Part shown: positions 2,036 through 61,868 of the stretch, piece by piece
Position numbering within the stretch: position 1 is the first letter of the stretch
Layout: the number at the start of each line of letters is the position of its first letter
From: Romanomermis culicivorax
Lineage: Eukaryota; Nematoda; Enoplea; Mermithida; Mermithidae
Assembly (NCBI GenBank): GCA_963922205.1
Contig: CAWUHX010000119.1
Location: 806,001-870,000 of the forward strand
Length of the DNA stretch: 64,000 nucleotides
Direction of reading: 5' to 3'
The notes under the pieces: model-generated
Seen by the model: the letters and a program-made list of their open reading frames with translations, nothing else
What the model was told of the DNA's origin: nothing
Databases searched by the model: none
Made by a program: the position numbers and the translations under genes

Positions 2036-2226
2036 TTATTAGAAAATGCCCCGATGGGGCAGAAAAAAGGAGAATATACTTGCTTCGACAGTTGCCATGC
2101 TAGAAAAAGAAGTGGACTAGATTTTTGAGAACTTGGGTCAAAGTTGGAAAAAATTCACTTCCTTTATATTGGATTTTCATTCTATCTCAAAAAAATTTTC
2201 TATGTCTGTGAAGAAGTATATTCTGC
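2036..2226 (+). repeat. Left foldback arm, copy 1
   Basis: This is the reverse complement of 2851-3042 with only a few differences. It shares with its own partner copy-specific bases (CTTCGACAGTTGCCATGC, CACTTCCTTTA) that differ from copies 2 and 3. Confidence 0.9.
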
Positions 2227-2850
2227 AGCATCGTGCATTTTGTCCTTCCCCTGGCATTAACTACAGCAAAACTTTTCTACATGAAAATTATATGCACATG
2301 ATTTCAAATGTAAAGAAATGGTAAACCAATAGCTTTCTAACTCCCGACGTATTCAAAACTCTTGCCTCTCACACTAGCTGAAAAATAGTGAGGCAGGCAT
2401 ATTATAGTCATTTTCAGAACTATAAAGAAACCTGAGGCTGGTTGCACTAACCCAACATGAGGATAATCTCAACATCGGGACTAAATTGCTGATCCAGAGT
2501 TGAGCTAATCGCAATGTCCAAATTATTCTCTTCCAGTGCACAAACAATACTCACTTCAGGATTAACTAATACTGAGATTTGATTTCGCGTTTGGAAATCG
2601 CAGACATTTTAATATTTTTTCGCTTTAGAGATAAGAAAATTATTCGAAAAAGTTAGTGCAACCCAGGATTTTTTTGCCGGAGGCAAATGAAATTTTTTTG
2701 GGGCAAACGAAATTGGAGTAGTCATTTGTACATGTACAAACGGCTCTTTCTCATTTAGGGAGGAGATAAGGTAGAGAAAATATGCATTTTGGTGCATTTT
2801 AGAAATTCATAATCTCAAAATTAAAAAAAAACTTTAATAATCATCATTAG

Positions 2851-3042
2851 GCAGAATATACTTCTTCACAGACATAGAAAATTTTTTTGAGACAGAATGA
2901 AAATCCAATGTAAAGGAAGTGAATTTTTTCCAACTTTGACCCAAGTTCTCAAAAATCTAGTCCACTTCTTTTTCTAGCATGGCAACTGTCGAAGCAAGTA
3001 TATTCTCCTTTTTTCTGCCCCATCGGGGCATTTTCTAATAAA
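2851..3042 (-). repeat. Right foldback arm, copy 1
   Basis: Inverted partner of 2036-2226. It ends in TTTTCTAATAAACTAG, the junction seen in all four copies. Confidence 0.9.
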
Positions 3043-3219: not shown

Positions 3220-4075
3220 GTAAAGATACTGAAAGGTGACCATATCTATTGAATTCCTCATGGTTTAGAATCCTTCAACCCAAAAATCGCAGAAATACCT
3301 TTGTCTGCAGAAATGACTTTTTTTCGTGTAAACTGACTCTGTCCATTGAATTCCCCATGGTCAGAAACATCTTCCCTCAAAAATCGCAGAAATACATGTC
3401 TTTACATTTAATATGAATTAGTGTGTAAAGTGATCACTTTCATTAAATTCCCAGTGGTCGAAAACCCCTCCCACAAAAAACTCACGAAAGCAGGCTTGGT
3501 TAAATCCGGAATAATTTTTTTTGTGTAAACCGACACATCCGTTGAATTCCCCGCAGTCAAAAACCCCTTCCATAAAAATCACGAAAATATGCTTGTTTAC
3601 ACCTGCGATAGTTTTTTTTTGTAAGATGATCGCATTCGTCAAATTCTCCGTGATCGAAAACCCCGCCCACCGGGAAATGACGAAAATACGTTTGTTTACA
3701 ACCGGGATAAGTTTTTGTGTAAAGTGATCGCATTCATCAAATTCCCCGTGGTCGAAAACCGCTTCCAACAAAAAATCACGAAAATACGTTTGTTTACACA
3801 CGGGGTAATTTTTGGTGTAAAGTGATCACATTCATTGAATTCCTCGTGGTCGAAAATCCCCTCCACAAGAAAATTACGGCAGTACGCTTGTTTACACCGT
3901 GGATAATTTATTTGTGTCAAGTGAGGACGTCTATTGAATTCCCCGCAGTCGAAAACTCCCTCCACTGAAAAAACACGGAAATACGCTTGTTTACACCCGG
4001 GATAATTTTTCGTGTAAAGTGACCGCGTCCATCAAATTCCCAATGGTCGAAAACCCTTGCAGCCCAAAAATCCCA
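3220..4075. repeat. Satellite array, about 8-9 units of about 98 bp
   Basis: Each unit reads approximately GAATTCCCCGCGGTCGAAA, then ACCCCTTCCACCAAAAAATC, then ACGAAAATACGCTTGTTTACAC, then GGGATAATTTTTTGTGTAAAG (blocks are adjacent; wording is a consensus by eye). Each unit contains the inverted pair TTTACAC and GTGTAAA. Long minus-strand open frames are a by-product of unit length near 99 nt and are not genes. Confidence 0.9.
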
Positions 4076-5010: not shown

Positions 5011-8000
5011 CTAGTTTATTAGAAAATGCCCCGATAGGGCAGAAAAAAGAAGAATATACTTGCTTGGATTGTTGCCAAGTTGGAAAAAATTCACTTTCGT
5101 TATATTGGATTTTCATTCTTCCTCAAAAAAAATTTTCCATGTCTGTGAAAAAGTATATTCTGCAGCTGAGTGCATTTTGTCCTTCCCCTGGCATTAACTA
5201 CAGCAAGGTTTTTCTATATTAAAATTATATGCACATGATTTCAAATGTAAAGAAATGGTAAACCAATAGCTTTCTAACTCCCGACCTATTCGAAACTCCT
5301 GCCTCTCACACTAGCTGAAAAATAGTATGGCAGGCATATTATAGTCATTTTCAGAACTATAAAGAAACCTGAGGTTGGCTGCACTAACCCAACATGAGGA
5401 TAATCTCAACATCGGAATTTAATTGCTGATCCTGAATTTGAGCTAATCGCAATGTCCAAATTATTCTCTTCCAGTGCACAAACAGTACTCACTTCAGGAT
5501 TAACTACTACTGAAGTGTAAGTTCGAGTTTGAGAATTGCAGACATTTTTATATTTATTTGCTCTAAAGATAAGAAAATTATGAGAAAATGTTGGTCGCTT
5601 TTTTGTTCGAGATTATGTTGAGCTCGAGCTCAGACCCCTTTAGTGCAACTGGGCCTTGGTTACAGTCATTGGGCACCGATCTGCAAATGAGTGAACAAGG
5701 TAAAGCATACAAAAATGCTCCTGGTTCAGCCTTGCCTATTAGGGCTGTGCACCAAATACCGTATCCCGTTCTCCCCGACCCTACTCGCACTCCCACTGCA
5801 ACAGTACAACTTTTTTGAAAGCAGGACCAGAGCGACAGAGATGGGAGAAATTGCTTCTCGTCTGCAATCCCACAAAAAGCGCTCTTTTTGCTAATTTCTG
5901 TTTAAATCCAAAAACTGTGAATGATGCTATTTTGTTGAATAGTTAAATAGAAGAGAATAAATCTGTTTATAGCTAGTAATCAGTAGAACTTATAAAGTGA
6001 ATCCTATGCGATATGTTATGTAAAATAAGTGAATTAAACATATCTTGCACAATCGATTTAGTTTTAAGAAGACTTTCTGATATAGCTTTTTTTCTAAAAA
6101 AGCCGACTGGAATTTCACGTGCCAATTTTCTGCAGTTGATTCCTGTTTTATTGACACTAAATTTACCAAAAAAGTTCAACGCAGTTAGAAGCACACATGT
6201 GTGAGGGAGGACATGGGGGTACAAACTAACCCAAAGGTTTTGAAACTGGAAAATTTGTTATGAAAAAAATTTTATGGTCAACTTTTTTTGCATTTTTTGA
6301 CTCAAAAAACGCCAAAAAATAAAGGTCCAGCCCTGTACTCTCCTCGAAATTCCGGAGATCTACATGTTTGGTTGGAAAGCGTGTTGATGCACTCAGCTGC
6401 AGAATATACTTTTTCACAGACATGGAAATTTTTTTTTGAGAAAGAATGAAAATCCAATATAACGAAAGTGAATTTTTTCCAACTCCAACCCAAGTTCTCA
6501 AAAATCTAGTTCGATCCTATTTCTAGCTTGGCAACAATCCAAGCAAGTATATTCTTCTTTTTTCCGCCCTATCGGGGCATTTTCTAATAAACTAGTTCAC
6601 TTCTTTTTAGTGGGCTTCAACCACACGAGAAAACCTTCATAGAACCGCATCAAAGTTTTAAATTTGGTCGTCTTCACATCAAAGAAACAATAAAAAATCT
6701 TAAAGGTACGAATTCTCACTTTCAGTGAAAGTAAAAGATGTTTAAACCGCATAGAACTTAAAACACGTTGTAAACAGAGTGTAAAGTGAAGATTTCCATT
6801 GAATTCCCCATAAACCTCAACCCAAAAAAAACAGAGAAGTACCTTTGTTTTAAATACACATAGAACATTTTTTTGTGTGTAGTGATTGAATTCCACATGG
6901 TCAGAAACCCCTCCCCTCAAAAATCGCAGAAATACATTTGGAATACACTCAATATAATTTTGTGTGTAAAGTGATTAAATTAAATTCCCCGTCGTCAAAA
7001 ACCCCTTCCACAAAAAAATCTTGAAAATAAGCTTGAGTACGCCCAAGATAATTTTTTTGTATAAAGTGACACATCCATTGATTTCCCGCAGCCGAAAACC
7101 CCTTTTATAAAAAATCACGAAAATACGCATGTTTACACTGTAAATAAGTTTTTTGTGTAAAGTAATCGCATTCATCAAATTCCCGTGGTCGAAAACTGCT
7201 TCCGTCAAAAAATCAGGAAAATACACCTGTTTACACCCGGTATAATTTTTTGTGTAAAGTGATCACATTCATTAAATCCCCTGCGGTCGAAAACCCCTTC
7301 CACTAAAACGCTTGTTTACACTCGAGATAATTTCTTGTGTACAGTAATCGAATTAATCAAATTCCGCGGTCGATAACTCCTTCGACTAAGAAGTCACGAA
7401 AATACGCTTGTTTATAACCAGGATAATCTTTTTCTGTAAAGTAACCGCATCTATTGAATTCCCCGCGGTCGAAAACTCCTTCCACTAAAAAGTCACGAAA
7501 ATACGCTTGTTTATAACCAGGATAATCTTTTTCTGTAAAGTAACCGCATCTATTGAATTCCCCATGGTCGAAAACCCCTTACACAAAAAAATCACGAAAG
7601 TACGCTTGTTTACAACCGAGATAATTTTTCGTGTAAAGTGACCGTGTTCATCAAATTCCCAATGGTCGAAAACCGTCACTGCCCAAAAACCCCAATAAGG
7701 CTACCGGTTCAGTTGAAACTGCAAAAAATTAGTAGTGCATTATGTTGCAAAAAATTATTTTTTTGAAGCCGTAAGTATTATATAACAAAACTGCGGAATT
7801 TCGCGTTTCCCGGGACTTTGGACCACCATATAACTGAATTGGGGTCATATTTAAAAAAAATAAAAATTCGCATTTGAGATTGCGCCCCCAAGATGCTCAG
7901 GCCGAAGTATGAAGCTTGGACATGCCACCCCCATTGCTGGGCATGGTGGAACTGGGGGGCCTTAAAAAGTTCGTTTTTTCATGTTTTTGGGGCCCCACCG

Positions 8001-16856: not shown

Positions 16857-17074
16857 TATAATCTGTTTATTTATAAAATGTTTCTAAATTGAAAAATACC
16901 TCAAATCAAAACTGTCGTCAAAGCTGTTAACACAAAGCTTTTACAATCAGGCTTTTCACTCAAAAAAATGTAAACGTTATTTGAAAATTCTCACAAAGTT
17001 TCAGTCCTATGTGATTAATGGATTAGCAGAAAATCTTTAAGGACCTTTTGTAGTAGTTCACCACCACTATTTTT

Positions 17075-17097
17075 TTAGGCTTAGGCTTAGGCTTAGG
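17075..17097 (+). repeat. Interstitial nematode telomere repeat (TTAGGC)n
   Basis: Three exact TTAGGC units plus TTAGG. TTAGGC is the telomere unit of C. elegans and Ascaris. It lies inside the MITE, just inside the left TIR. Confidence 0.9.
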
Positions 17098-17141
17098 ATA
17101 ATAAAAATAATAAATGGGAATTAAAAGGTTGATTTTAACTG

Positions 17142-17214
17142 AGTGTTTGGCTCAGTGGTAACGCACTGGAGTGTTTGAATCAAAAGGTTGCAGGTTCGAA
17201 ACCTACCTGATGAC
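17142..17214 (+). ncRNA. tRNA-derived sequence, not a functional tRNA
   Basis: An A-box-like TGGCTCAGTGGT and a perfect B-box GGTTCGAAACC are about 35 nt apart, the right distance for a tRNA. A T-arm can be drawn (GCAGG, TTCGAAA, CCTAC with one mismatch), but the acceptor ends do not pair and the anticodon stem is broken. This fits a tRNA-derived SINE-like relic that may keep an internal pol III promoter. Confidence 0.6.
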
Positions 17215-17367
17215 AAAAAAAATCGCCGAAAAACTAAAAGAATGAAAAAAATATGAAAAAAATAGTGGTGGTGAACTACTACAAAAGGTCCATCTTTAAA
17301 ATATGAAATACTACTTGCTCTCCACATTTATTATTTAGGAGCAATTCAAGAAAAATATACTGTAGCC

Positions 17368-17587
17368 CAGTTTAACTTCTTACCTGTTATGATCGATTGA
17401 TAAACTAGAAGAACATAAACTGATAACTAGTCTTTAGAAAGAAGATAATCATTAGTTGACTACACTAGTGAATCATCTAGTATGTCTATGAAACCTGTCT
17501 CCCATAAGTCATCGAACTGTTAATAGGAATTTTGCAGTTTCGACCGCACCAAAATACATGGGAATCTTACCTCGATTGTGTGCCCTT
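17368..17587. other. Intergenic DNA
   Basis: No feature recognised. Confidence 0.5.
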
Positions 17588-17917
17588 AAGGCCCTGCTAT
17601 ACTTCGCCGGCCGGCACTGATAGAACTATAGCAGCTCTTAGCCGGCGCCGGCCGTGAGATACCTACTGCAAACATACGAAAAAACGATAAAACACCAAGA
17701 TGCATTTTTCGCACCATAATTCATATGTTATAACATACGCGACGGCTAGTGACGGTTCAGAAATTTCGATTGAATCGAAATTGACAATCGGCGCCGGCCA
17801 GCGCCGGCCGTCATCAAAAAGACGAAGTATAGCAGCTCGAAACCGGCGCCGGCTATGAGCTGCTATGCTTCTAACGGTGACGGCCGGCGCCGGCCGGCGA
17901 AGTATAGCAGGGCCTTA
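17588..17917. mobile_element. GC-rich TIR element flanked by TTAA
   Basis: The ends GGCCCTGCTATACTTCGCC and its reverse complement are immediately flanked by TTAA on both sides, the signature of piggyBac-type insertion. Inside are many GGCGCCGGCC palindromes, in sharp contrast to the AT-rich surroundings. No transposase is present. Confidence 0.8.
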
Positions 17918-18117
17918 ACATATGAATTATGGTGCGAAAAATGCTTCTTGGTGTTTTATCATTTTTTCGGAGGTTTGCAGTAGGTATCTCACGGCCGGCA
18001 CCGGATGAACTATAGCAGCAAAAATTTGCAACCGGTGACGGTCGTTGCCGGCCGGCGCCGGTTTAAAAATATTTCATCCGGCGCCGGCCGACGCTGGCCG
18101 TTTAAGTATAGCAGGGC
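17918..18117. mobile_element. Inverted partial copy of the GC-rich TIR element
   Basis: 17918-18000 is the inverted copy of 17650-17735, followed by GCCGGCCGGCGCCGG blocks and the terminus AAGTATAGCAGGGCCTT. It shares or abuts the TTAA of the first copy. Confidence 0.7.
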
Positions 18118-30300: not shown

Positions 30301-33300
30301 ATTTGCGTTTTCAAGCAAAATCAATGATACCATAGAACTCAGCGCACAAAACTACTCAAAATATCTCATTCTGAAATATGATTAATTTTCAACTTATCAT
30401 AGGTCAATGTAAAAAAAGGTGGAATCTCTCAGAAATCGTGTCTTGATAGTTTTTTCCGCATTGAACTTACTTTCATGGGATCGCCGCATCGATCATTTCA
30501 AAATTAATGGAGTTTATACATCCCCAAGGTCTAAAATGTTGTTGGGGTAAAATTACAATTTTCACCAGGCAGTGCCTCCGTGACCGTTTTTGGGTCGCTG
30601 TGTCCATATATGCACAGCATAGAAATTCTGCGGGGGGTCAGCCAGGACAGGGGGTGGAATACAAATTTTTTTTTTCATTCTTGATAATGAAAAGAAAGGT
30701 CTCAGAAAGTCTTCTAACATCCAAGCAGCATATTCTTCAACCTATGTTAGTCAGATATGTGAAACTATTTGCTTAGACAGTACTTTTTAAAGTTTCCATG
30801 TTACTTTTTTGGAATCAAGTATGATTTGTTTAGAAAAATTGTCAAACTACAAAGTCATTTCCATTTTTATGAAGACTTTTTTTCTCTCTTGCTCATTTTC
30901 CCTCGTCATCTTCTCAATCATTGCTGGAAAAGTTAAATCTGCTGGGGGTCAACAAGAATCTGCTGGGGGTCAATAAAAATCTGCTGGGGGTCAAAACCCC
31001 CCAAACCCCCCCCCACGTGCATGTATGGCTGTGTCTCGTCACGGGGTGCTGGTTGCATGATTCCGACCTCTATGGCATCGTGATATACTATTTTTCTGTC
31101 TCTGCTCTGATGCTGTTTTTCACTTGTGAAAACAGCTTACTGGGCTATAGCCCATCCGTTGTCAAATGAGCGTCGAAATGCAAAAATATCCAAAAAACCG
31201 TGGCCGGTGATGACCGTGCGTCGTGAGCCTAAATTTTATTTTTAGTCGTAGTCATACTGCTACAGTCAATCTGAAAAAAATGAGGTCTATTTGTTATTTG
31301 CATGAGTATTTTTTTCTTCGTGAGGCTCGTTTCATAATAAATAGAGTATTGTACTGATGCTTCAACTACACGCTACTTTTCCATCACGACCCTGGAATTC
31401 TTCGCTCCCTTAATTTTTGTCGCACTAATTCATAACCACATATTCTACGAGTACTATAAGTGCTCGGGTATGGCCCACAAGCGCGCGCGAAAACGTTATT
31501 TCTGCCCTATCATATTAAAACTGCCTGTGAGAGAAGGCGTATAATATGCTAATGAAGTCTCGACTTTTTTAATTAAAAATAAAAACCAAAAATACAACTA
31601 AGAACTTCAACAAAACAACAGTACATGCGAAAATTTGTCTCTATCGTTGAGTTTCGACGGATCAGTGACAGAAATCATGGATTTTTGTGTCTGTGTCTCT
31701 GTATTTTGGTGTCTGTATCACAGGTATGTTCGACATCTTGTTGGTCAAAAGTCACGGGTGGTTATGGCCGATAATTGAATGAAAATGATTTTTGTTAACT
31801 TTTTAGAGTAAATAAAATCTCAAACGTTAGCATAGATTAAATCGCAGACTGCAGAGTTTGAACATTACCATACATTAACAAGGGTTTTTAGTATGGTGCT
31901 AAAGTGAGAAATTTTAAAAAAAGTTCGAGAAGAAAGTTGAAGATATCACAAAATTATGGTGGAAAATCAAAATCGTCATTTTCACAAATAACAACTTCGT
32001 TAATATCCTCATTGTCTTCATCACTTTTGCTTAGTGAATGATTGTGGCTCGAATCTAGATCGTCTTCGGCTCTAACCTCAAGAACGCTAGTTGAATAATT
32101 CGAAAACAACTGTTTTGACATATGCCAAGTTTACACAAATTAGTAATAGTGAGGAAGAAATATAATTGTACGTTTTCTGAAAAAAAACAATCGAGAACCT
32201 ATATTGAAGTTGGAGCGCAAAACATGTGAACTTTTATCCGAACAGAACATGACCGGCGATTCCTAAAAGTTTTACTGTCAAACTAACCATTGAACTTGTC
32301 GGTTAAATAACCAAGTGCATAGTAAGAATGAGCTAATTTAATTAGAATCAGATGAGTGCCTTAAAGGCCCTGTCATACTTCACCACGAGGCACCCGCGCG
32401 GCGCCGCTTGTCCTATTCATACTAAAGAGCGGTGCCGGCCGGTGCCGCCTGGGAACTATGAATAGATTTTTCTAATTTTTGCTGCGCAGCGCGGTAAGTT
32501 TAACTCAAACGAAATTTTCGAACAACTCATGTGTTATAAAGCTGTAAAATATTGTTGCAATAACATATTGATGTATACTATAACATCTGTATATGCAGTT
32601 CAATCATATTTTTTACATGAATCGTGAATTATGACACTTTTCAGGTATTATTTTATCATGCCTCTTAATAATACATTCACAACATAGAAAATCTGTGGGG
32701 ACTCAGCCAGTACAAGCAGCATGTTTTTCTAACATCCAAGCAGCATGTTTTTCAACCTATATTAGCGAAATATGTGAAATTATTTGCTTAGACAGCATTT
32801 TTTAAAATTTTAACGCTTCTTCTTTGAATCAAGTATGCTTCGTTTGGAGAAATCGTTTAACGACGGTATCATTTTCATTCTTATGATGACTTTCTCTTCT
32901 CTCTTGATCATTTTTTCGTTCGTCATCTTCTCAATCATTGTTGGGGGGTGTAAGATCTGCTGGGCGATCAATACCTCCAACCTCTCCCCCGCTACATTTC
33001 GAAAAAATTCATCCTGCATTCTGAAAAATCCATGATGGACAAGTTTTGGCCATGCACTCAGAAATTTGTCCTGTAATTTTATGCCAGAGGTATTATTAAT
33101 GACGTTTTCACAAACAGATTTTCGGAAGTATTGGAAATATGTATGGTTCGTTTTTATAAACTCTTTGTAAATTGAAAAATGGACAAAAAAGTTCGACCAC
33201 CTTCAAAATCGTTCACAAACCGTTTATTAAAGGATTTTTGGAGTAAAAAATTCGTGAGGATTGGTTGAGCAGACTGTAAATTATAGAAATATAGAGTGAT

Positions 33301-36300
33301 ACTTGCTCTCCACTTTTTTATTCACAAGCATTTCCAGAAAAAGAGACTATAGGTTGTGTTGTAATTACATAATTTACAATGTGAAAAAATTATTAATATG
33401 CAAATTAAGTATAAACGCGTTTATACGGCCTGATGTTGTCTTAGCAATAAGCCAAGTGCAATTAGCAGCTCCAAAAACGATAAAAAACAAGTGTTTGCAA
33501 TTTTTTCCAGTACCTTTTTATTCAAAGAATAAAATCCGAAAGTAAAAAAACGGCACAGCGCAGTACCGCGCGGCGAAGTATGACCAGGCACCGCGCGGTA
33601 CCACGCGGCGAAGTATGACAGGGCCTGAGTTGATTATACAATAAAAGCAGGTTATCAGAATTGACAAACCCACACATTAGTTTGACACCAACAAAGTAAC
33701 ATTTTTCAACCATGCTAACTGTACTAATGAAATATTTCTTCATTAGCACGAATGCTAATGGGGCTCGTGCTAAAAAACACTGGACATTAAGTTCCTTCAA
33801 ATTACGTAAGACCAATTAGCATGAAAATTATTGGCTCTTACAATAAAGAGTCTTTCGCGCTTATGAGCCTTTCACAGTAGAAAAGATAGGACACGCTCAA
33901 GTATATACTGTTTTCGCGCTTATGAGCTGTTCGCGCTAATGGGCTCATTCGTTGTTATGGGCCGTTCGCGCTAATGAACCCCAACCTAAGTGCTCTGGTA
34001 ACCGTAGAGTAGCACTTTTTGGCGGGCCGTTTTTTGGACGACCCTTTATTTGCGAGGGATGTTCAATACGCTCCAATATTTATATTGATGACTCGTTTGC
34101 TGACTCATTGGCTTCTTTATTCAAGCACACGTATTCTAATTTCACGGAAATGGAACTTTGATTAGTTTTATCCTGCGAAAACCTTTTTCCTCTCAAGTCT
34201 GAAATTTTTTGTTCAATAGCTTTACGACTTTTTGATAGCACCTGAGTTGTAAACATTTTATCTCATTTGTTTTAGCAAAAGTCCTTCTTTGTGATAGGCA
34301 TCTTTCGATTCCGTTTGATAATTCCTATAATTTTTCCTGTGATGTCCTTCAAAACGGCAATGATAAAATTTCCAGCCCAAATTCAGGGCAATTTTTTCAG
34401 ATATTGCCGCTCCCTGACATGTACTCTCACATATTTAATTTTTCAGCAGAAAATGCAACCATTGAGCCACGTCTCGTTCCACACGCAGTCAATGACCTGA
34501 TACAGACAGTTGACTCATCAGAAGGTAAGTCAACAATTATTTATAGGTAGGAATTTTTGGGTGTATTAAAATTTTTTGAAAACTCACATGATTTGCAGTA
34601 CCATGCAAACCACAGAAAATTCAAAAATTTGAAAACGTCGGTAGAAAATCGTGTTTCGATATATTGAAATCCACGACGGCTGGTATAAGAAATGTGAAAA
34701 ATTACGTTCCAAAATGCAAATCCGATGGTCAGGTTGCTCGTGCAACATTTTGAGTTCAGTCTTAAAAATATGTGCTATTCGGCAGGTTCATTCGAAGAAG
34801 TGCAATGCGATTATGATAATGTTTGTTGGTGCGTCGATATGAATGGTGAAGAAGTGCCGCGTTCTCGGAAAATCGGGTCAAATTTTCCCGGCTGTAATTC
34901 GCATCGTATGAATAATAGTGAGATCCATATATGATTACTCGTATTACAATAAACTGTGAAATGTTTTTGGGTATAGTGAACCCGAATGCCGAATTTACTT
35001 TTGTACTTGGTGTGGAATCTTGATTTATAAATTTTCTTCAAGCTCCAGTGTTGCTATGAAGTCCCTTTTTTCAGCTAAGGCGAGAGCTAATGATGAAGAG
35101 ATCAAAAAAGTTGATGTTGCCGCAGTTGGTAATTTTCCATATCCTAAAAGACCCAATGGATCTTTCATTACAATTTTTACAGTAGTCAATCACACCAAGC
35201 AATCAATCAACAGTTCGGAAATGTTTTTGGGTGCAAACATATGCAAATTACCCAAAAGTTACGGTTCCTACTGTAACGCAACTAAGGAGAATACAACTAT
35301 TAACAAATGGTACTTCAATAACGAGAAATTTTCATGTTTGGCCTTCACTTACAAAGGCTGTGCTGGCAACGACAATAAATTCGACACGAAAAGTCAGTGC
35401 GAAATGAGATGCAAACCGCGTAAGTAAATTTTAATCGATAATACATATTTTGAGGTCTCGCAATCATGATTTAAGCTCGTTTCTTGCTGGCGTTTGGTGA
35501 TTTTGTTTTTGTGTTAGTTATAAACAGTCAGCTCTCGTGTATGTCCTTTTCATGTGTTTTAAATTCACATGTATATATGTCTTGAGGTCCGTCCATGAAT
35601 AATATCCAGAGACATCGCAAGGATATCCTAAGATATCCTTTTAACTTAAGAAAAGATGCGTCTTAAAGTCGTAAGACACTGTTAAGTGAATGCGATTTCA
35701 ATATTTTCGGAAATGTACATTTCTGATGCGAACATTATGAATAAACTGCAGCCTGTTAATCAGTTGATACTTTCATATATCATTTCGTAGAAAACGAGTT
35801 CATTTGATGGTCTGTTAAACATTTATGTTAGGAAGCCATTATCAATTGATAGTATCCTAATCCATTCTTAATGTGAATTAGTTAATAATAAATTTGTAGT
35901 CCATTTCCTGATGTCATTTTTCTTTCTGATAATGGGGCTAAGGTAAAGTTTTCGCTGCATGATGAATAGCTGATTAAATTTGAAACATTTTTCTCCATTG
36001 TTATCTAAAATTGGAATTTTGAAGATGCCTCTGCGTGGTTTTTGTAACTACACACGAAACCATCTTTTCTCTTCATTACCTTTCCTGCTGTTCTCTAGGC
36101 TATCATATTTTCTTTGATACAAATGAAAATGTTGAGGCCAGTCGGACCGTCAAAATTAGAGAGAATTATGTTTTATACTCAATGGGATCTGTAGATCCTC
36201 GGATGTTTCAAAATCCTGTGATTTGCGTTGTTCGGCTCCGATGCATAATTTACTGTAATAAATTATAATCGAATAAGCGAATTGGTTTTCTCCGCGAAAA

Positions 36301-39300: not shown

Positions 39301-42300
39301 TACATAAAAATAATAAAAAACTGTCTTCAAAAAAGTTCAGAAGGTGTTTGTGGATTTTTTCAAACCTTGCGGGTGTCCAGGATCTCTCGTAAAAGGGTTT
39401 ACCCCTATCCCCTACGTGCTTGTATGGTCCGTATCTAATAATACAGTTCTTAACATCATGTATGGGTGAACTTTCGATTCTCTAGCAAATTTATGCAAAT
39501 TTCAGTGTAAAGAAGGTCTGCAGGGAAAATGATAAGTGTAGCTATACTCAAGTTGCTATGGGTTGTCGAAAGCCCTACAACACGTATGATTTCAGAGCAT
39601 GCACTTGGAGACCCTCCCTGGTTAGTTCATCTGTTCGTAGATCGTTTATGGAAAATTTTTTCTAAATGACTACAGTAATACGTTTTTTATTTTTCCGCAT
39701 TGAACTTACTTACTGTATTGAACATCGGTTCGCTTTGTCTGCGATTTTGAAATAAGTTGACTAGAGAAAAAGTGATCCAAAATGTTGACTTGATCTAAAC
39801 AATTCTGCCAAATTGTTAATCCAAACGTTTTTTTCTATATCCATGTATATCGTTTTCGAATAATTCTCTCGTCCGAATTATGCCACACCAAGTTGTGACT
39901 AGGATTCGGCTACGGTTCGATTTTTTTTGTATCACATACACGGACAGTGCAAATCACAAGATTTCATCGATCCTCTAAAAACCATGGTGCAATCCGAATT
40001 CAATTACAAATCAGAATTTTATTAGGTTCCGATAAAAACGCTTATTTTCCAATCATATCTCAAAATTTTCAGTCAAATCTCGCAAAATATCCCACGGCGG
40101 AATTCCCGTTTCCTGTCCAGTTGGTGAACCGTTAGTCGACGAATATTCGTCCAAAATTGTATTGTGCAACGGCGAGAATCAATGCTCCAATGGGGCTTTT
40201 TGTTGGAACGGCTATGAAATCGAAAGGAAAGATTCCGACGGCATATGTTGCTTGCAGATGAATGAAGGTGACAAATTCATTATTTCGAGGCACGTGTTCA
40301 CGTATAGGCCCTGAAGCTGAATCCGATGCAGTACCGGATGAAAGATGGAGCTGGTACTTGCCAGATCCAAGAGGTTCTCGGATAAAATCCGTGCTTAGAT
40401 TTAGGCTCAAGCTTGAGGTTTAGGTTGCAGGATCCGGTTCAATATAACCTCCATGCTCGTAATTTTGGATCATAATTGCTTTTTTGTTTTTTCATCAACT
40501 GGCAGGTTTCTAATACTTTTAATAGTTCCGAACTATAATTTTTCCATTGAGGGTTTCGTTCTTTCCGTGCGCTCACTTCTGATTTTCCTATCTTGTTGTT
40601 CAAAGTTCTTCTTTTTCATCTAATGAAAAATATATTCTCCTAGATTTTTTATCGTATGTGTTATATCACATAGTATCATTTTATCTCTATGATCCATATT
40701 CTTTCCCCGATCTAGTATTTGAGTTTTGTAGAGGCTTGGAGATGATCTAATGAAAATTCGTGTACATCCAACTATGATTAAATTTTCGAATAATTCTGAT
40801 TTGACGATTCAGGTTAAGATTTTCTTCTTTCCATAAGTCTATCGTTAGAGATCTGAATTTAGTATCTTGATGCAGACAATTAAAGTTCATAACCCTTGAA
40901 GTGAACGACGTATTAGAAAACTGCATTATCTTGTGATTTGATCATCTGGAAAATAGCCTATCAAATCAGCAAAAAGAACATAATCAGCAAATATAGGAAA
41001 AATTTCAGTATATCAGTAGAAATAGGGGAAATGCTTCTAACATATTATTTCTTGAAATCAGCATGAAGTTGAATCACAATCATGTATATTTGCGAAAAAA
41101 CCACTCCAAGCCAGAAACTTTCGAGTTTTCTCGCTGTAAAAAATTTATACGCACTATAGCGTTATAGAAAAAGTACTGTTACGGAAAAAGTAAAAAATAA
41201 AAATAAAAACGAGATACCTGGACATCACTACTGCATGCATATTTTTGTTGTGTATCTTTTATGACTGATCCTAACGTAATTATATTACCCTAACTGTTAT
41301 GACCATACATTTTTAACGGATACGGAGATATTGAACATCTTAACCTTAGCCCTCTCCTGGGTGGAAATCTATTGTGGAATTTCGCATATTGCAAAGATGC
41401 ATTGTTGATTATTTTTCACCTTAAAATCAGTGTTTGGAAGTCTACTTTTTCCATTTTCCTACCATCAACTTGACTTGATCTCACTAGAGAAGGTCTCCAA
41501 ATATAAATTCCGAAATAAAATATTTCATAGTCCATTCAATAGCCAATTAGTTTATTAGAAAATGCCCCGATGGGGCAGAAAAAAAAAGAATATACTTGCT
41601 TGAATTGTCGCCAAGCTTGAAAAAGGAGCGGGCCAGATTTTTGAGAACTTGGGTTAAAGTTGGAAAAATTCACTTTTCTAATATTGGATTTTCATTCTTT
41701 CTCATTAAAAAATTTTTCATGCCTGAAAAAAAGTATATTCTGCAGCATCGTGCGTTTTGTCCTATTGTGCGAAAATGTTAGTGCAACCCGACAGCTCGGG
41801 CTGGGGATAATTTCGACATTCAGCTCGTCATAATACTGATGACACTGAGATTATACCAAACTTGAGATAAAACCGAGTCACCTTTTTGTTCGAGATTATT
41901 CTGAGCTCGAGCTTAGACCCCTTTCGTGCAACTGGGCCTTGGTTGCAGTCCTTGGACACCATATGCAAATGGGGAAACAGGGTAAAGAACACAAAATGCC
42001 ATTAAAAAACTCCTGATTCAGCCATGCCTATATCAGATATGTGCACCAAATCCAGTTCCCGCGTCTTCCCCACTCTACTCGCACTCCCACGGCAACAGTA
42101 CGACTGTTTTGAAAGCAGGATGAGAGCGATCGGGCTGGGTGAAATTGCTTCCCGTCTGCAATCCTGCAAAAAGTGCTCTTTCTGCAAGTTCCAGTTTAAA
42201 TCCAAAAACTGTGAATAATGCTATTTTGTTGAATATTTAGAAAAACTGGTAATAACTTGATTTCGAGTGCCTATATTGAGAGAATAAATCTGCTTACAGC

Positions 42301-45300
42301 TTTTAATCAGTAAAACTTACGGAGTGAATTCTACACCATGTCTTATATAAAATGACTGAATTAAATAGATCCTGCACAATCAATTTAGTTCTAAGAAGAC
42401 TTTGTGCTGTAGCTTTTCTTCTAAAAAACTTAGTAGGATTTCATTTGTCACTTTTCACAGTTGATTCCTGTTTTATTAACACTAAATTTAGTAAAAAAGT
42501 TCTACGAGTTGGAAGGACACATGTGTGAGGGGGACATGATGGTGCAAACTACCCCAAGAGTCTTGAAACTGGAAAATTTTGTATGAAAAAAATTTTTGAC
42601 CAACTTTTTTGGAATTTGTTGTTTCAAAAAACGTCAAAAAACCGTGGTCCGCCCGAGTGCCCTCCTTAACATTTCGGATATGCGCATGTTTGGTTGGAAA
42701 GTGTGTTGATGCACTCAGCTGCAGAATATACTTTTCACAGACATGGGAAATTTTTTAATGAGAAAGAATGAAAATCCAATATTAGAAAAGTGAATTTTTT
42801 CCAACTTTAACCCAAGTTCTCAAAAATCTGGCCCCCTCCTTTTTCAAGCTTGGCGACAATTCAAGCAAGTATATTCTTCTTTTTTCTGCCACATTGGGGC
42901 ATTTTCTAATAAACTAGTCCACCTTTTTTAAGTGGGCCTCAACTATGCATGAAAATCGTCATAGAAGCACATTGAAGTTTTAAATTTGGCCATCTTCACA
43001 TCAAAGGAAGAGTAAAAAACATCTTAAAGCTACGAATTCTCACTTTCGGAAGAAGTAAAAGATGTGTAAACTGCATAGTACTTAGTACACGTTGTAAAGG
43101 AAGTGTAAAGTGACCATATCGATAGAATTCTACATGGCCAAGAACCACTCAACCCAAAATATCGCAGAAATACCTTTGTTTACACATTGGAAAACTTTTT
43201 GTGCAAGTGATTGCGTCCCTTGAATTCCCCATGGTCAGAAACCCCTTCCCTCAAAAATCGCAGAAAGACATTTGTTTACACTTGAGATAATCGTGGCCGC
43301 GTCTATTAAATTCTCTCCAGTTGATAATTCTATAGGCGCGATCACTTTACACAAAGCCTCCTTCTACCAAAAAAATTCGGGAAATTCGTTTTTTTACACT
43401 CGGAATAATTTTTTGTGTACGGTGACCGCATTCATTGAATAACCCCCTTTCCAGGATCCCTTCCACCAAAAAATCCCGAAACACGGTTGTTTACACCCGG
43501 GATAATTTTTTTTATGTAAAGTGACCGCATCCATTGAATTCCACCCCCCCCCTCCCTGCGGTCGAAAACCCCTCCCAACAAACAGGCGGGGAAATTCGTT
43601 TGTTTACATTCGGGATAATTTTTTGTGTGACGTGACTGCATCCATCGAATTCTCCAAAGCCGAAAACCCCTTCCATAAAAAATCGCAGGGATACAGTTGT
43701 TCACACATATAATAAATTTTGTGTAAAGTGATCGCGTCTATTTAATTCACTGTGGTCGAAAATTTTTTCCAAGATAAAATCGCGGAAATACTTTTGTTTT
43801 CACTCACGATAATTTTTTTGTGTGAAGTAACCGCATCCATTGAATAAATCCCATTCGAAAACCCCTTCCACCAAAAAATTACGAAAATACGCTTGTTCAC
43901 ACTCAGGTTAATTTTTTATGTAAAGTGATTGAGTCCTGTAGTCAAAAACCCTTACCAACAAAAAATCGGGGAAATTCGTTCGTTTACACTCTGAACAATT
44001 TTTTCGTGTAAAGTGACCGCATCCGTTGAATAACCCCTGGTCAAAAACCCCTTTCACCAAAAAATCAGAAAAATACGCTTGCTTACACTCAGGATATTTT
44101 TTTGTGTAAGGTGATCGCATCCATTGAATTCCCAATGGTCGAAAACCGCTTCTGGAAAAAGACCACGGAAATACCTTTGTTTTACACGCAGGATAATTTT
44201 TCGCGTAAAATGACCATTGAATTCTCCGCGGTTGAAAACCCCTTCCAGAAAACATCGCTGAAATAGGCTTATTTACACTCAAGATAATTTTTTTGTGTAA
44301 CGTGACTAGATCCATCGAAATCTCCATAGCCGAAAACCCCTCCTCACAAAATATCGCAGAAATACATTTGCCTACACTTAAGATGATTTTTTGAGTAAAG
44401 TGATTGCATTCATTGAATTCCCCACGATCGAAAACATCTTTCACGACGAAAATCTGCTTATTTACACCCGGGATAATTTTTTTGTGTAAAGTGATTGAAT
44501 TCATCGAATTACCCGCGGTCGAAAACCTCTTCCACCAAAAAATCACAGAAACACGTTTGTTTACACTCACGATAATTTTTTGTGTAAAGGGACCGCGTGT
44601 GAATTCCCCATGATCGAAAACCCTTGCACTCCGGAAATCCCAATAACGCTTCTAGTTCAACTGGAACTGCAGAAAATTCTGGCACCACCGCAGTGCATTA
44701 TGCTGCAAAAAATTATTTTTTTGAAGCCGTAAGTATTATATAACAAAATTGGGGGATTTCGCGGTTCCCGGGACTTTGGACCGCCATATAATTAAATTGA
44801 GGCGATATTTAAAAAAATGAAAAATCGCATTTGAGATTGCACCCCCAAGATGCTTAGGCCGAAGTATGGAACTTGGATATGACTCATCCATTGTGTGGCA
44901 TGGTGGGACTGGAGGCCCTAAAAAAGTGCGTTTTTTGCATGTTTTTGGTCCCCCATCGAGCACCACTTGCAGATAGGGGCGAAATGACAAAAGGCACCCC
45001 ATAGTTTGCCCCTAGGCCCGGAATTATGAAAAAAAACCCGAAGGTTCTAGCTCTTACCGTTTTGGCTCTAGGTGGGGGGGACATGAAATTGGGGGGCCAA
45101 GTATATTATAGGTTGACGCTATCGCGCCACCTATGATAACAACCTGAATAATGTTACACTAAATTTTTCCTCGCGGACCGTGTTCTTTGCCTAAATGTAA
45201 TGAACAATTGAAACCGCCTATATCCAGTCTGAGCGACCACTGAACCAAAATGCATTCGATAAAGCATCCTCACAATTGCAATAATCCTTTAATGAATAAT

Positions 45301-59630: not shown

Positions 59631-61757
59631 CTGAAAAAAACTTATTTTTTACTTGTTTTTACGGAATACGGGAAAGGCCACTTGAAAAAAGACGTTAACA
59701 CTCGAAAAAAATCGTTGGCTGCGAACATAATGCACAACTTTTTTTCAAGATCCATGGAAAAAAATCAAGATGTAAGAGTTTTTCGATGTTCGACTTTTTT
59801 CAAGTGCATAGCAATTCTTCTGATGCATTGCATTTTTTTCAAGCTGATCTTAAAAAAATCAAAATAGTATCTTAAAAAGACTCAAGATCCCATCTCGAAA
59901 AAGAATCAAGATCCCATCTTGAAAAAGAATCAAGGTCCCATGTTGAAAAAGAATCAAGATCCCATCTTGAAAAAAAACAAGATTCCATCTTGAAGAAAAC
60001 TCAAGATGACATCTTGAAAAAAATAAGATTCCATCATGAAGAAAATCAAGATCCCATCACGAAAAAAGCGATTCCGAGCAATTCCCAAGTGAGCAATTCC
60101 TAAGTGACCAAAGTCCCAATTGAGCGATTCCCATGTGAGCGACTCCTAATTGAGCAAATTCCCGATTGAGCAAATTCCCTATTGAGCGAATTCCCAATTG
60201 GGCGAGTACCCAATTTGGCGATTCCGAAGGAGTGATCGACAATGTAGTAACACTTTATCCATATTTCCAATTTTTACCATATATTTTTCTTTGTATGTAT
60301 TTTTTTCTTTCGTTTTCTGTGTGTGTTGCTTATGTTTTCGTTTACGTATTTTTTACGTTTTCAATTTTTGTCTCGGCTTTCTTTCATTTTCTTCCTTCTT
60401 GTCATATGATTTTTTCTTTTTTTGCTCATGATACAATACATTACAATTTCTCATTTTAAATGACTGTTGTCTTGAGTCTTTCATCGTTGTAGGTGTGAAA
60501 AGCTTCATAAAAACATAAAAAAGAATGCTGCAAGGAACGAAACATCAAGAGAAAAGGAAACGTCAACAAAAATGAAGAAAGTGAAAATGATTGTGTTTCG
60601 ATTCATCGAATGTCCCAATTCCTCGAAAGTCTCGATTCTTCGAATAGTGCTTAAGATTTTATCTACAAAATCCCACAAAAGTCTAAAGGCGAAAGTCCCG
60701 ATTGCTCGAAATTTTTTTTTCAAAAGATTCTTTTAGAGATTTTCATTTTGATTTTCTTTTTTTCACCTTATTTTTTGTTAATTTAAACAGTTATAGAAAA
60801 GGTAAAGAGCATGCCTGAAGAATAGTTTTTGGACTAGAGGATAGGTCAATATCTGCAGAGTAAAATGAATATTTACCTATTGAATAACGTCTTCCCTGAG
60901 CCGGATTATACCACGTCAAGCAGAATCACTAAAAACGCCATAAAATTGAAACTTCCAAACTTTGGCATACTGTAGCTATGCGAATTCCAATTTTCACCAG
61001 AAAGGAATGTTACAATGGAATTGAGCGTATCAAACTACGTAGCGAATCTTATTTTGTGGTATGGTTAATTTTTTATTCATCGTAGCGAAAGAAAAAAGAG
61101 ATTAATGCCAGGATGTAGACAATCAACGTCAGAATTTCATAGAATTGGTTCCAGTTCCGCATCCGGTTCCGGTGACATTTGGAGATTCGCTTCTGGTTCC
61201 ATTCCTTGAAAAGTGAATCACTTCCTTTCGGTTCCGGTTCCGGATACCCGTTACATGCCCTAATCCATGTATTCACGTGAAATAAAATCGTGAGTCAAGT
61301 AGTTTTGCGCCGAGCGCTCGTACCGGTTTAAATTTAGTACAAAAAATTTCTAAAAATTGCTTCCAAATAATGAAACTGGAAAGCACTATTTCATTCTTTT
61401 ACAATTTTTTTGAATCATATATCCTATGGAGCTGATTATAAGCATTTTATAAAAAACAAGCTATACTTTCGTATTCGGCGCAAGTGATTTTGGGCAAATG
61501 CGGGCTGCGCATCGAACCGTGCACCTTTATGCCTTTTTTGTCGATACAAAAACGCCAACCGTCCGGTAGCTCTTGCTCCCTGATGAACGAACCATTTTCG
61601 TGACATTTGGGCACAAAATCGTACGTTTTATTGGCGTTTTTTAATTTTAGAGCTGTTTGACGTTGGGATTGACAGATTGACAGGTTGCCCGATTGTTGAT
61701 CTGTAGATGACGCTACAATGGTCGCCGATGATGACGGAATAGCAGTTGGATTCACTC
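59386..61757 (-). CDS. Gene 2: thyroglobulin type-1 protein, 3' part
   Basis: Exons 61757-61467 and 59630-59386 join in phase 1 across an intron of 1,836 nt. The product is a Ser/Thr-rich lead, a degenerate thyroglobulin type-1 domain and a charged tail. Upstream exons must exist because the first exon here starts in phase 1 and no signal peptide is seen; 62154-61869 is a candidate. The gene runs toward gene 1 and shares one domain type with it, so local duplication is possible. Confidence 0.6.
59690..60065. repeat. CAAGAT/ATCTTG mini-hairpin array, locus 2
   Basis: About nine units of TCAAGATCCCATCTTGAAAA, each a CAAGAT-CCC-ATCTTG hairpin, preceded by the same lead block as at 9520-9560 (AAGAGTTTTTCGATGTTCG). 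It lies in gene 2 intron DNA. Units are more regular than at locus 1. Confidence 0.88.
60065..60235. repeat. GAGCGATTCCCAATT phrase array
   Basis: About ten degenerate phrases (TTGAGCGATTCCCA, TTGAGCAAATTCCCGA). A related block in the same sense is at 60600-60715 (CGAAAGTCCCGATTGCTCG). Between them is a T-rich tract (60250-60470) like the complement of 18340-18540. Confidence 0.75.
60720..61330. other. Intronic DNA of gene 2
   Basis: 61140-61260 has a GGTTCCGGTTCC-type simple repeat (TTCCGGATACC variants). Nothing else recognised. Confidence 0.5.
61340..61466. mobile_element. MITE half abutting the gene 2 exon
   Basis: TTGCTTCCAAATAATGAAAC through AAGCATTTTATAAAAAACAAGCTATA is the right half of a TATAGTCTG-family MITE. 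Its tip coincides with the donor of the thyroglobulin exon: the GTATAG read on the minus strand lies in the TIR. Confidence 0.7.
61467..61757 (-). CDS. Gene 2 exon: thyroglobulin type-1 domain lacking two cysteines
   Basis: Acceptor TTTTACTTTAG, donor GTATAG, phase 1 at both ends, 291 nt. After a Ser/Thr-rich lead come ICQSQRQTAL, FVPKCHENGSF, then EQELPDGWRFCIDKKG and KITCAEY. Compared with the canonical QC...CWCVD motif, Cys 3 is Glu and Cys 4 is gone, while Cys 1, 2, 5 and 6 remain. Since C3 pairs with C4 in this fold, one disulfide has been lost as a unit. GS-x-x-x-P before the last Cys is retained. Confidence 0.88.
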
Positions 61758-61868
61758 CTAAAGTAAAAGTATTTTAGGTATTATTGTGCCGGTTTTATCC
61801 AACTTAGAAAGTTACATTGTTATAGCATAGGACTAATATTCTTAGCATATCGCTACAGTCGGGTGAAC

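Follow-up and report, generated by a model that had tools for sequence, protein, structure and literature searches.

A 251-bp element at positions 17041-17291 of a 64-kb stretch of Romanomermis culicivorax DNA (the window, positions 806001-870000 of contig C119 in an assembly of 359 Mb and 595 contigs) is a non-autonomous Merlin transposon, a miniature inverted-repeat transposable element (MITE) of the subfamily that we term A. Dozens of copies of its family carry telomere repeats where a relative has transposase, and a second family looks alike, a pattern that points to a possible route for the scattering of telomere DNA inside chromosomes. We consider it probable, at roughly 70%, that this Merlin MITE was born by internal deletion, with telomeric DNA as filler at break repair, and then spread by transposition. 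A previous sequence-only reading of the window had described a young hAT-type MITE, possibly a chimera of a short interspersed nuclear element (SINE), telomeric DNA and a DNA transposon, with its telomere seed acquired during break repair or at a chromosome end. Loci from elsewhere in the genome are designated below by L numbers and contigs by C numbers.

The boundaries given in that reading proved exact, and its perfect 36-bp terminal inverted repeats (TIRs), exact 8-bp target-site duplication (TSD) and three TTAGGC units were all confirmed in place. The first and last 36 bases of the element are perfect reverse complements, the TSD on its two sides is ATCTTTAA, and TTAGGC starts at 17075, 17081 and 17087, to be followed by TTAGG. 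From base composition, a 22-mer of this array would be expected about 5e-9 times in the window, both strands included. Because of its TIRs the element as a single strand is predicted to form a long hairpin (z of -10.95). It is the sole copy within the 64-kb window, and its features are as follows.

17033-17040, no strand: left TSD ATCTTTAA, exact match to the right side
17041-17076, plus strand: 5' TIR of 36 bp, beginning GGACC, a perfect inverted repeat
17075-17097, plus strand: telomere-type array, (TTAGGC)3 and TTAGG, its first TT common to array and TIR
17097/17098, plus strand: subfamily A junction TTAGG/ATAAT, from comparison with L059
17098-17147, plus strand: AT-rich stretch, equivalent of the region 3' of the L059 transposase piece, from comparison with L059
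17148-17206, plus strand: degenerate tRNA-like core, with A box at 17148-17159 and B box at 17193-17203, a core also found in L059
17256-17291, minus strand: 3' TIR of 36 bp, matching the 5' TIR perfectly in the inverted-repeat comparison
17292-17299, no strand: right TSD ATCTTTAA, exact match to the left side

A 22-mer of the TIR gave 70+72 matches in the genome at one mismatch or fewer, and its reversed control gave none. Stretches were taken around BLAST matches (39, the window copy included, the best 40 of 91 candidates having been scored), around TIR matches (37 of 40 fetched) and around core matches (6), and the family copies read are a lower bound. The first 76 stretches yielded 69 copies with two TIRs. 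All but one, L059, are without transposase; these 68 copies measure 249-850 bp, and in every one a telomere array of 2-52 exact TTAGGC units (median 15) separates the 5' TIR from the core. Each also retains at least half of the core, which upholds the pol III (RNA polymerase III)-like core as a family trait. Transposase-less two-TIR copies that lacked TTAGGC or the core, which the sequence-only reading took as the sign of a one-off capture, were thus not seen, and a one-off telomere capture in the window copy is rejected. An array was also present at seven of the eight loci with a single TIR (L042, L052, L056, L073, L074, L078, L080 and L083; the L052 array is only 18 bases long, and L073 is truncated where its contig begins) and in all six further copies, L135-L140.

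Exact 8-bp TSDs flank 53 of the 69 copies, and 12 more match at seven of eight bases (at a length of 9 bp a single copy has an exact duplication; cross-locus control, 1/4692). Termini are GG..CC in 59 of 69. L058 and L059 lie in copies of one host repeat, and each locus shows the other's site unoccupied, the 8-mer being present there only once and, in one case, with one base different. The copies were mobilised with 8-bp duplications. Their spread was recent, because the copies of subfamilies A and B (62 compared) diverge from their subfamily consensus by only 0-10%, with a median of 2%, in agreement with the earlier description of a young MITE. The elements are short, non-coding and TIR-bounded, with many near-identical copies bearing TSDs, as is characteristic of MITEs. 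No match was found to the TIR in IMG/VR, or to the element in plasmids.

We assign the family to Merlin, and not to hAT, because of the PF12762 transposases of L059 and L119, the GG termini and the 8-bp TSDs. L059 (869 bp, on C37) has the family TIRs, the core and an exact TSD around an open stretch of 187 amino acids, and no array. This stretch matches PF12762 (DDE_Tnp_IS1595) at 75 bits against a cut-off of 27, and PF12762 is the sole Pfam family found in the L059 open reading frame (ORF). L119 (on C459), a second TIR-bounded copy, has a transposase 90% identical to that of L059 (65.8 bits to PF12762) and the TSD AAATTTGA, and is without array and core. These are the array-less copies, the two that retain transposase sequence; the window copy itself has none. 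The TSDs of hAT elements have the consensus nTnnnnAn. Only two of the 53 exact TSDs fit it, the window copy happening to be among them, and the L059 ORF contains no hAT transposase; with the Merlin transposase in a relative and the GG ends, this removes the hAT label and leads us to reject the hAT superfamily. Elements of the Merlin superfamily have TIRs of 24-462 bp ending in 5'-GG and TSDs of 8-9 bp, according to the available part of PMC8101967, and the present family has IS1595-type transposase in its relatives, a 36-bp TIR that begins GGACC and a TSD of 8 bp.

The genome is rich in Merlin elements. The Merlin transposase domain is matched genome-wide at 150 scored places, the best of 247 candidates, many of them open for more than 250 codons. 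The family TIR was absent from ten Merlin transposase loci chosen by family score and from a further ten loci, L120-L129, whose proteins are more remotely related to that of L059.

The position of the telomere array is best understood by comparison with L059, which has both flanks of the transposase side and no array. Motif searches showed that subfamily B (30 copies) retains the 3' flank alone (TTTATTGAATAATATTGC...), subfamily C (5 copies) the 5' flank alone (GAAGTAGTACAATTTGCAG...) and subfamily A (33 copies, including that in the window) neither. There are accordingly three subfamilies with three distinct junctions, each filled by telomere repeats, and among the 69 two-TIR copies none combines an array with the two transposase flanks. 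Within each subfamily the letters of the junction vary little (left 27/30 and right 24/30 in B, right 27/33 in A, left 4/5 and right 5/5 in C). Throughout this family, henceforth family 1, TTAGGC reads from the 5' TIR to the core, with the exception of L036, which has some inverted units. The array of L036, a subfamily C copy, is head-to-head, CCTAAGCCTAAGC being joined to TTAGGC units, and might have been left by telomere fusion. Array length is able to change after insertion, because L028 and L032, where duplicated DNA with flanks 97-99% alike shares a single insertion, carry 11 and 15 units. At three diagnostic sites (64 rows compared, with 5 of the 33 A rows dropped) L059 groups with B, and C groups with A at two of them. 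A tree of the common 3' region (68 rows, one row of more than 260 bases having been left out) has good support on 2 of 65 inner branches and is too shallow to separate one capture from several.

A parallel case was found in another family. On contigs C1-C3, the matches listed include nine arrays of at least five exact TTAGGC units, of which one belongs to family 1 and two (L099 and L105) to a different TIR family, family 2. L099, L105 and L108, three of its copies, are flanked by exact 8-bp TSDs, and their GG-terminal TIRs match in 28-30 of 30 positions. The sequence that precedes the array in family 2 has 25 matches at one mismatch or fewer, and 24 of these run on into telomere repeats; nine junction rows at two mismatches comprise two that are unrelated and seven without letters. 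The exception among the 25 lies on C10, within an interval of 2,932 bp (2538659-2541590) that has matches to the 30-base family-2 TIR, with zero mismatches, at both ends. Its junction match stands 62 bases from the TIR, the same distance as in other family-2 copies, and the interval holds transposase matches at 2538889-2539113 and 2541130-2541357, which are 63% and 51% identical to the protein of L059. On this evidence a second Merlin family also exchanged its transposase for TTAGGC, because 24 of 25 junctions are filled and the exception, an element known by its match positions, is TIR-bounded with transposase matches. The feature is more general than had been claimed for the window, extending through one Merlin MITE family and recurring in another.

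The core of the window copy contains an A box, TGGCTCAGTGG, and a B box, GGTTCGAAACC. A loose A/B-box pattern has a single match in the window, at this core, and 2 in 100 Markov-simulated windows. The likeness of the core to tRNA is weak. It scores 17.5 bits with the Rfam tRNA model, below the cut-off of 29; ARAGORN predicts zero tRNAs in the window or at 25 other loci of the genome; four other copies of the element have no tRNA match at E<=1; and folding against shuffles gives z values of -0.10 to -1.18, with no clear excess of stability. The Rfam score and the ARAGORN result lead us to reject a true tRNA gene. All 71 genomic matches to the core at three mismatches or fewer fall inside the element (65 at loci already fetched and 6 at L135-L140), so that a free tRNA-derived SINE is rejected within that range, more diverged relatives not having been sought, and the proposed SINE chimera finds no support. 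The core is held in common with L059, the transposase-bearing relative; exceptions are L081, which lacks the B-box half, and the single-TIR loci L078 and L080, which lack the core. The A/B-box core is a putative pol III promoter-like feature.

These observations suggest how the MITE may have arisen. The transposase would have been deleted from a Merlin parent, and a double-strand break would have occurred inside the element, for example when gap repair aborted following excision. On the left, the broken 3' end would have been extended by telomerase or by copying of telomeric DNA, and then joined to the right end; the array orientation in family 1 is that predicted by extension of the left 3' end. 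In this genome such filling would have taken place at least twice, once per Merlin family, and perhaps as often as four times if the three junction types of family 1 are counted singly. Filled copies would have been multiplied by Merlin transposase acting in trans, so that interstitial telomere tracts would derive in part from Merlin MITEs. As for the pol III-like core, it would be a passenger inherited from the parent, its promoter predicted from sequence only. The sequence-only reading had offered two sources for the telomere DNA. Break repair fits, because the array sits at a junction without transposase sequence; the chromosome-end link does not find support, since 83 elements on 67 contigs show no excess near contig ends (Kolmogorov-Smirnov p = 0.47; 15 within 50 kb against 10.5 expected), in an assembly of contigs whose distances are not telomere distances.

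Several points weigh against birth by deletion and telomeric filling. Among the family-1 copies read no intact autonomous one was found, L059 and L119 each being without parts. A role of telomerase is only one possibility, because microhomology at the left junction amounts to 5 nt (TTAGG) in subfamily A, about 0 in B and C, and 1 in family 2, and telomeric DNA could just as well have been copied or ligated in. The three junction types of family 1 could derive from one capture followed by loss of edges. L025, which has an A junction, groups on its 3' region with two B copies (support 98/97); it is possibly a recombinant, and junction type may therefore change after origin or by recombination. 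As for family 2, its junction pattern has 7 reversed-control matches at two mismatches or fewer, and the C10 element is deduced from match positions only. Lastly, none of the TTAGGC arrays among the matches listed was seen to end a contig, neither C1-C3 nor six small contigs begin with one, and TTAGGC is taken as the telomere repeat from knowledge of nematodes (PMC9071541, available part). Searches with the Rfam models of the spliced leaders SL1 and SL2 (RF00199) gave no match, their controls being equally silent.

Growth of a microsatellite is an unlikely alternative to filling at a break. By this account the Merlin end contained a TTAGG-like seed (TTTTTTTAGG) that grew through slippage once a plain internal deletion had occurred, with no part for the telomere machinery, which would agree with the occurrence of TTTTTTTAGG at the 5' edge in L119 and subfamily C, with the instability of array length and with arrays of as few as 2 units. 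However, the arrays of B, C and family 2 lie at other places that have no such seed, the hexamer is always TTAGGC, and TTAGGC is abundant elsewhere in the genome.

It is likewise improbable, in our view, that the array was selected, telomere-binding proteins on TTAGGC aiding the MITE through protection, nuclear position or chromatin so that only filled derivatives spread. At least two units persist in all 68 transposase-less two-TIR copies, and two families converge on TTAGGC, as selection would have it. Yet hitchhiking yields the same counts if each subfamily stems from one filled founder, and array length, 2-52 units, is uncorrelated with divergence (Spearman p 0.54 and 0.27). A filled element can be moved in trans and its array is therefore multiplied, so that hitchhiking alone explains the presence of the array.

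We give still less credence to a single capture in one Merlin MITE, followed by spread through array recombination or telomeric insertion into existing MITEs. Arrays do occur in other repeats, including the foldback-like L100, L101, L106 and L132 with their GACAACTGAGCGCC arms, and L025 combines an A-type junction with B-like 3' sequence, but families 1 and 2 differ in TIRs and flanks, the array stands where the transposase-bearing relative has other sequence, and 0 of 69 copies have both transposase flanks plus an array. Finally, a hAT MITE formed at a chromosome end as a chimera of SINE, telomeric DNA and transposon is almost certainly not the explanation: the 8-bp TSD, the A and B boxes and TTAGGC are all real, but so are the Merlin transposase, the GG termini and a fit to nTnnnnAn in just 2 of 53 TSDs, and there is neither a free SINE within three mismatches nor a bias to contig ends.

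TTAGGC arrays are also found outside these two families. A pattern of five units has 25,431 overlapping matches in the genome against 7 for its reversed control. Other arrays were examined for surrounding inverted repeats at 19 selected points, reduced to 18 since L063 has too little flank (L130 and L133, in which the array fills the stretch, were left out); the points are not independent, because several are copies of one another. Of the 18, 7 scored 40 or more (3 belong to family 2 and 4 are foldback elements), compared with 4 of 300 positions drawn at random from the window. Scores of 20-21 were obtained for L083 and L098 and of 17 for the second array of L050, and the remaining eight (the first array of L050, L102, L103, L104, L107, L109, L110 and L131) scored 15 or less, which is chance level. 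In the four foldback-like repeats, arms of the GACAACTGAGCGCC minisatellite enclose TTAGGC arrays. L050 (C4:2685500-2688350) has arrays at 136-280 and 904-1228 in opposite orientation, within about 1.1 kb, and a Merlin MITE lies about 1 kb beyond the two.

Several other features of the window were recorded. A second inverted-repeat element, at 17586-17918, lies 295 bp downstream of the Merlin MITE; its TIR begins GGCCCTGCTATACTTCGCCGGC, it has TTAA on both sides and GC-rich nested palindromes within, and it is perhaps a TTAA-targeting MITE. Ends like those of this element also occur at 32365 and 33597. A diverged 98-bp tandem repeat (TGTGTAAAGTGATCGC...) forms three arrays (3422-4056, 6982-7673 and 43769-44623) of 71-77% mutual identity, and three stretches (2036-3041, 5011-6596 and 41548-42916) have similar inverted ends (TTTATTAGAAAATGCCCCGATGGGGCAGAAAAAA or near). 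The predicted ORFs include one with a Kunitz inhibitor domain (34960-35424, plus strand) and one with a thyroglobulin type-1 repeat (61450-61773, minus strand).

Deletion with telomeric filling offers a concrete route by which telomere repeats enter at the deletion that makes a MITE and are then copied around the genome by transposition, tying together two fields, the birth of MITEs by faulty gap repair and the action of telomerase at internal breaks. Two Merlin families appear to show it, so that it is datable, countable and testable in relatives. A broader idea, which we regard as doubtful and put forward only tentatively, is that this species routinely uses telomere repeats to heal breaks within Merlin transposons. 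MITE birth would then be coupled to telomere addition, unrelated Merlin families would each have swapped transposase for TTAGGC, and the resulting MITEs would be a main engine seeding interstitial tracts. Such tracts could act as scattered templates for maintaining telomeres, or as sites of fusion and breakage. Xenopus has MITEs with telomere-like satellites, that is, with internal tandem repeats, in a different superfamily. Searches of the open-licence PMC literature listed no paper that describes telomere arrays within a Merlin MITE, and the available part of PMC7998251 reports no link between MITEs and telomere repeats.

The GG-terminal TIRs, 8-bp TSDs and PF12762 domain (in L059) are those of the IS1595-related Merlin superfamily as presented in the available part of PMC8101967. 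What sets this family apart from the Merlin elements described there is its telomere repeats at a transposase-less junction and its tRNA-like core; tandem repeats are described there for one dinoflagellate Merlin family, telomere repeats going unmentioned in that part. The general idea that mobile elements spread telomere repeats has already been proposed (PMC6410037, available part, whose reference list includes a catfish hAT element beside an interstitial telomeric sequence). That proposal rests on association, whereas here all 68 transposase-less two-TIR copies of a specific Merlin MITE enclose the array between their TIRs. Interstitial telomeric sequences of mammals lie at breaks, many with microhomology to the repeat, and are taken as the work of telomerase (Nergadze et al. 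2007, PMC2246262, available part). Short telomere arrays at break-repair junctions are common to both systems; in mammals the insertions are compared with empty sites in related species, whereas here the filled junction would lie inside a mobile element and be multiplied by transposition. In C. elegans, as in R. culicivorax, TTAGGC tracts occur within the chromosomes, where their abundance is called a mystery and is linked to TALT telomere maintenance. The available part of that account (PMC9071541) does not place the C. elegans tracts in MITEs, whereas in the present nematode a mobile carrier of TTAGGC is identified.
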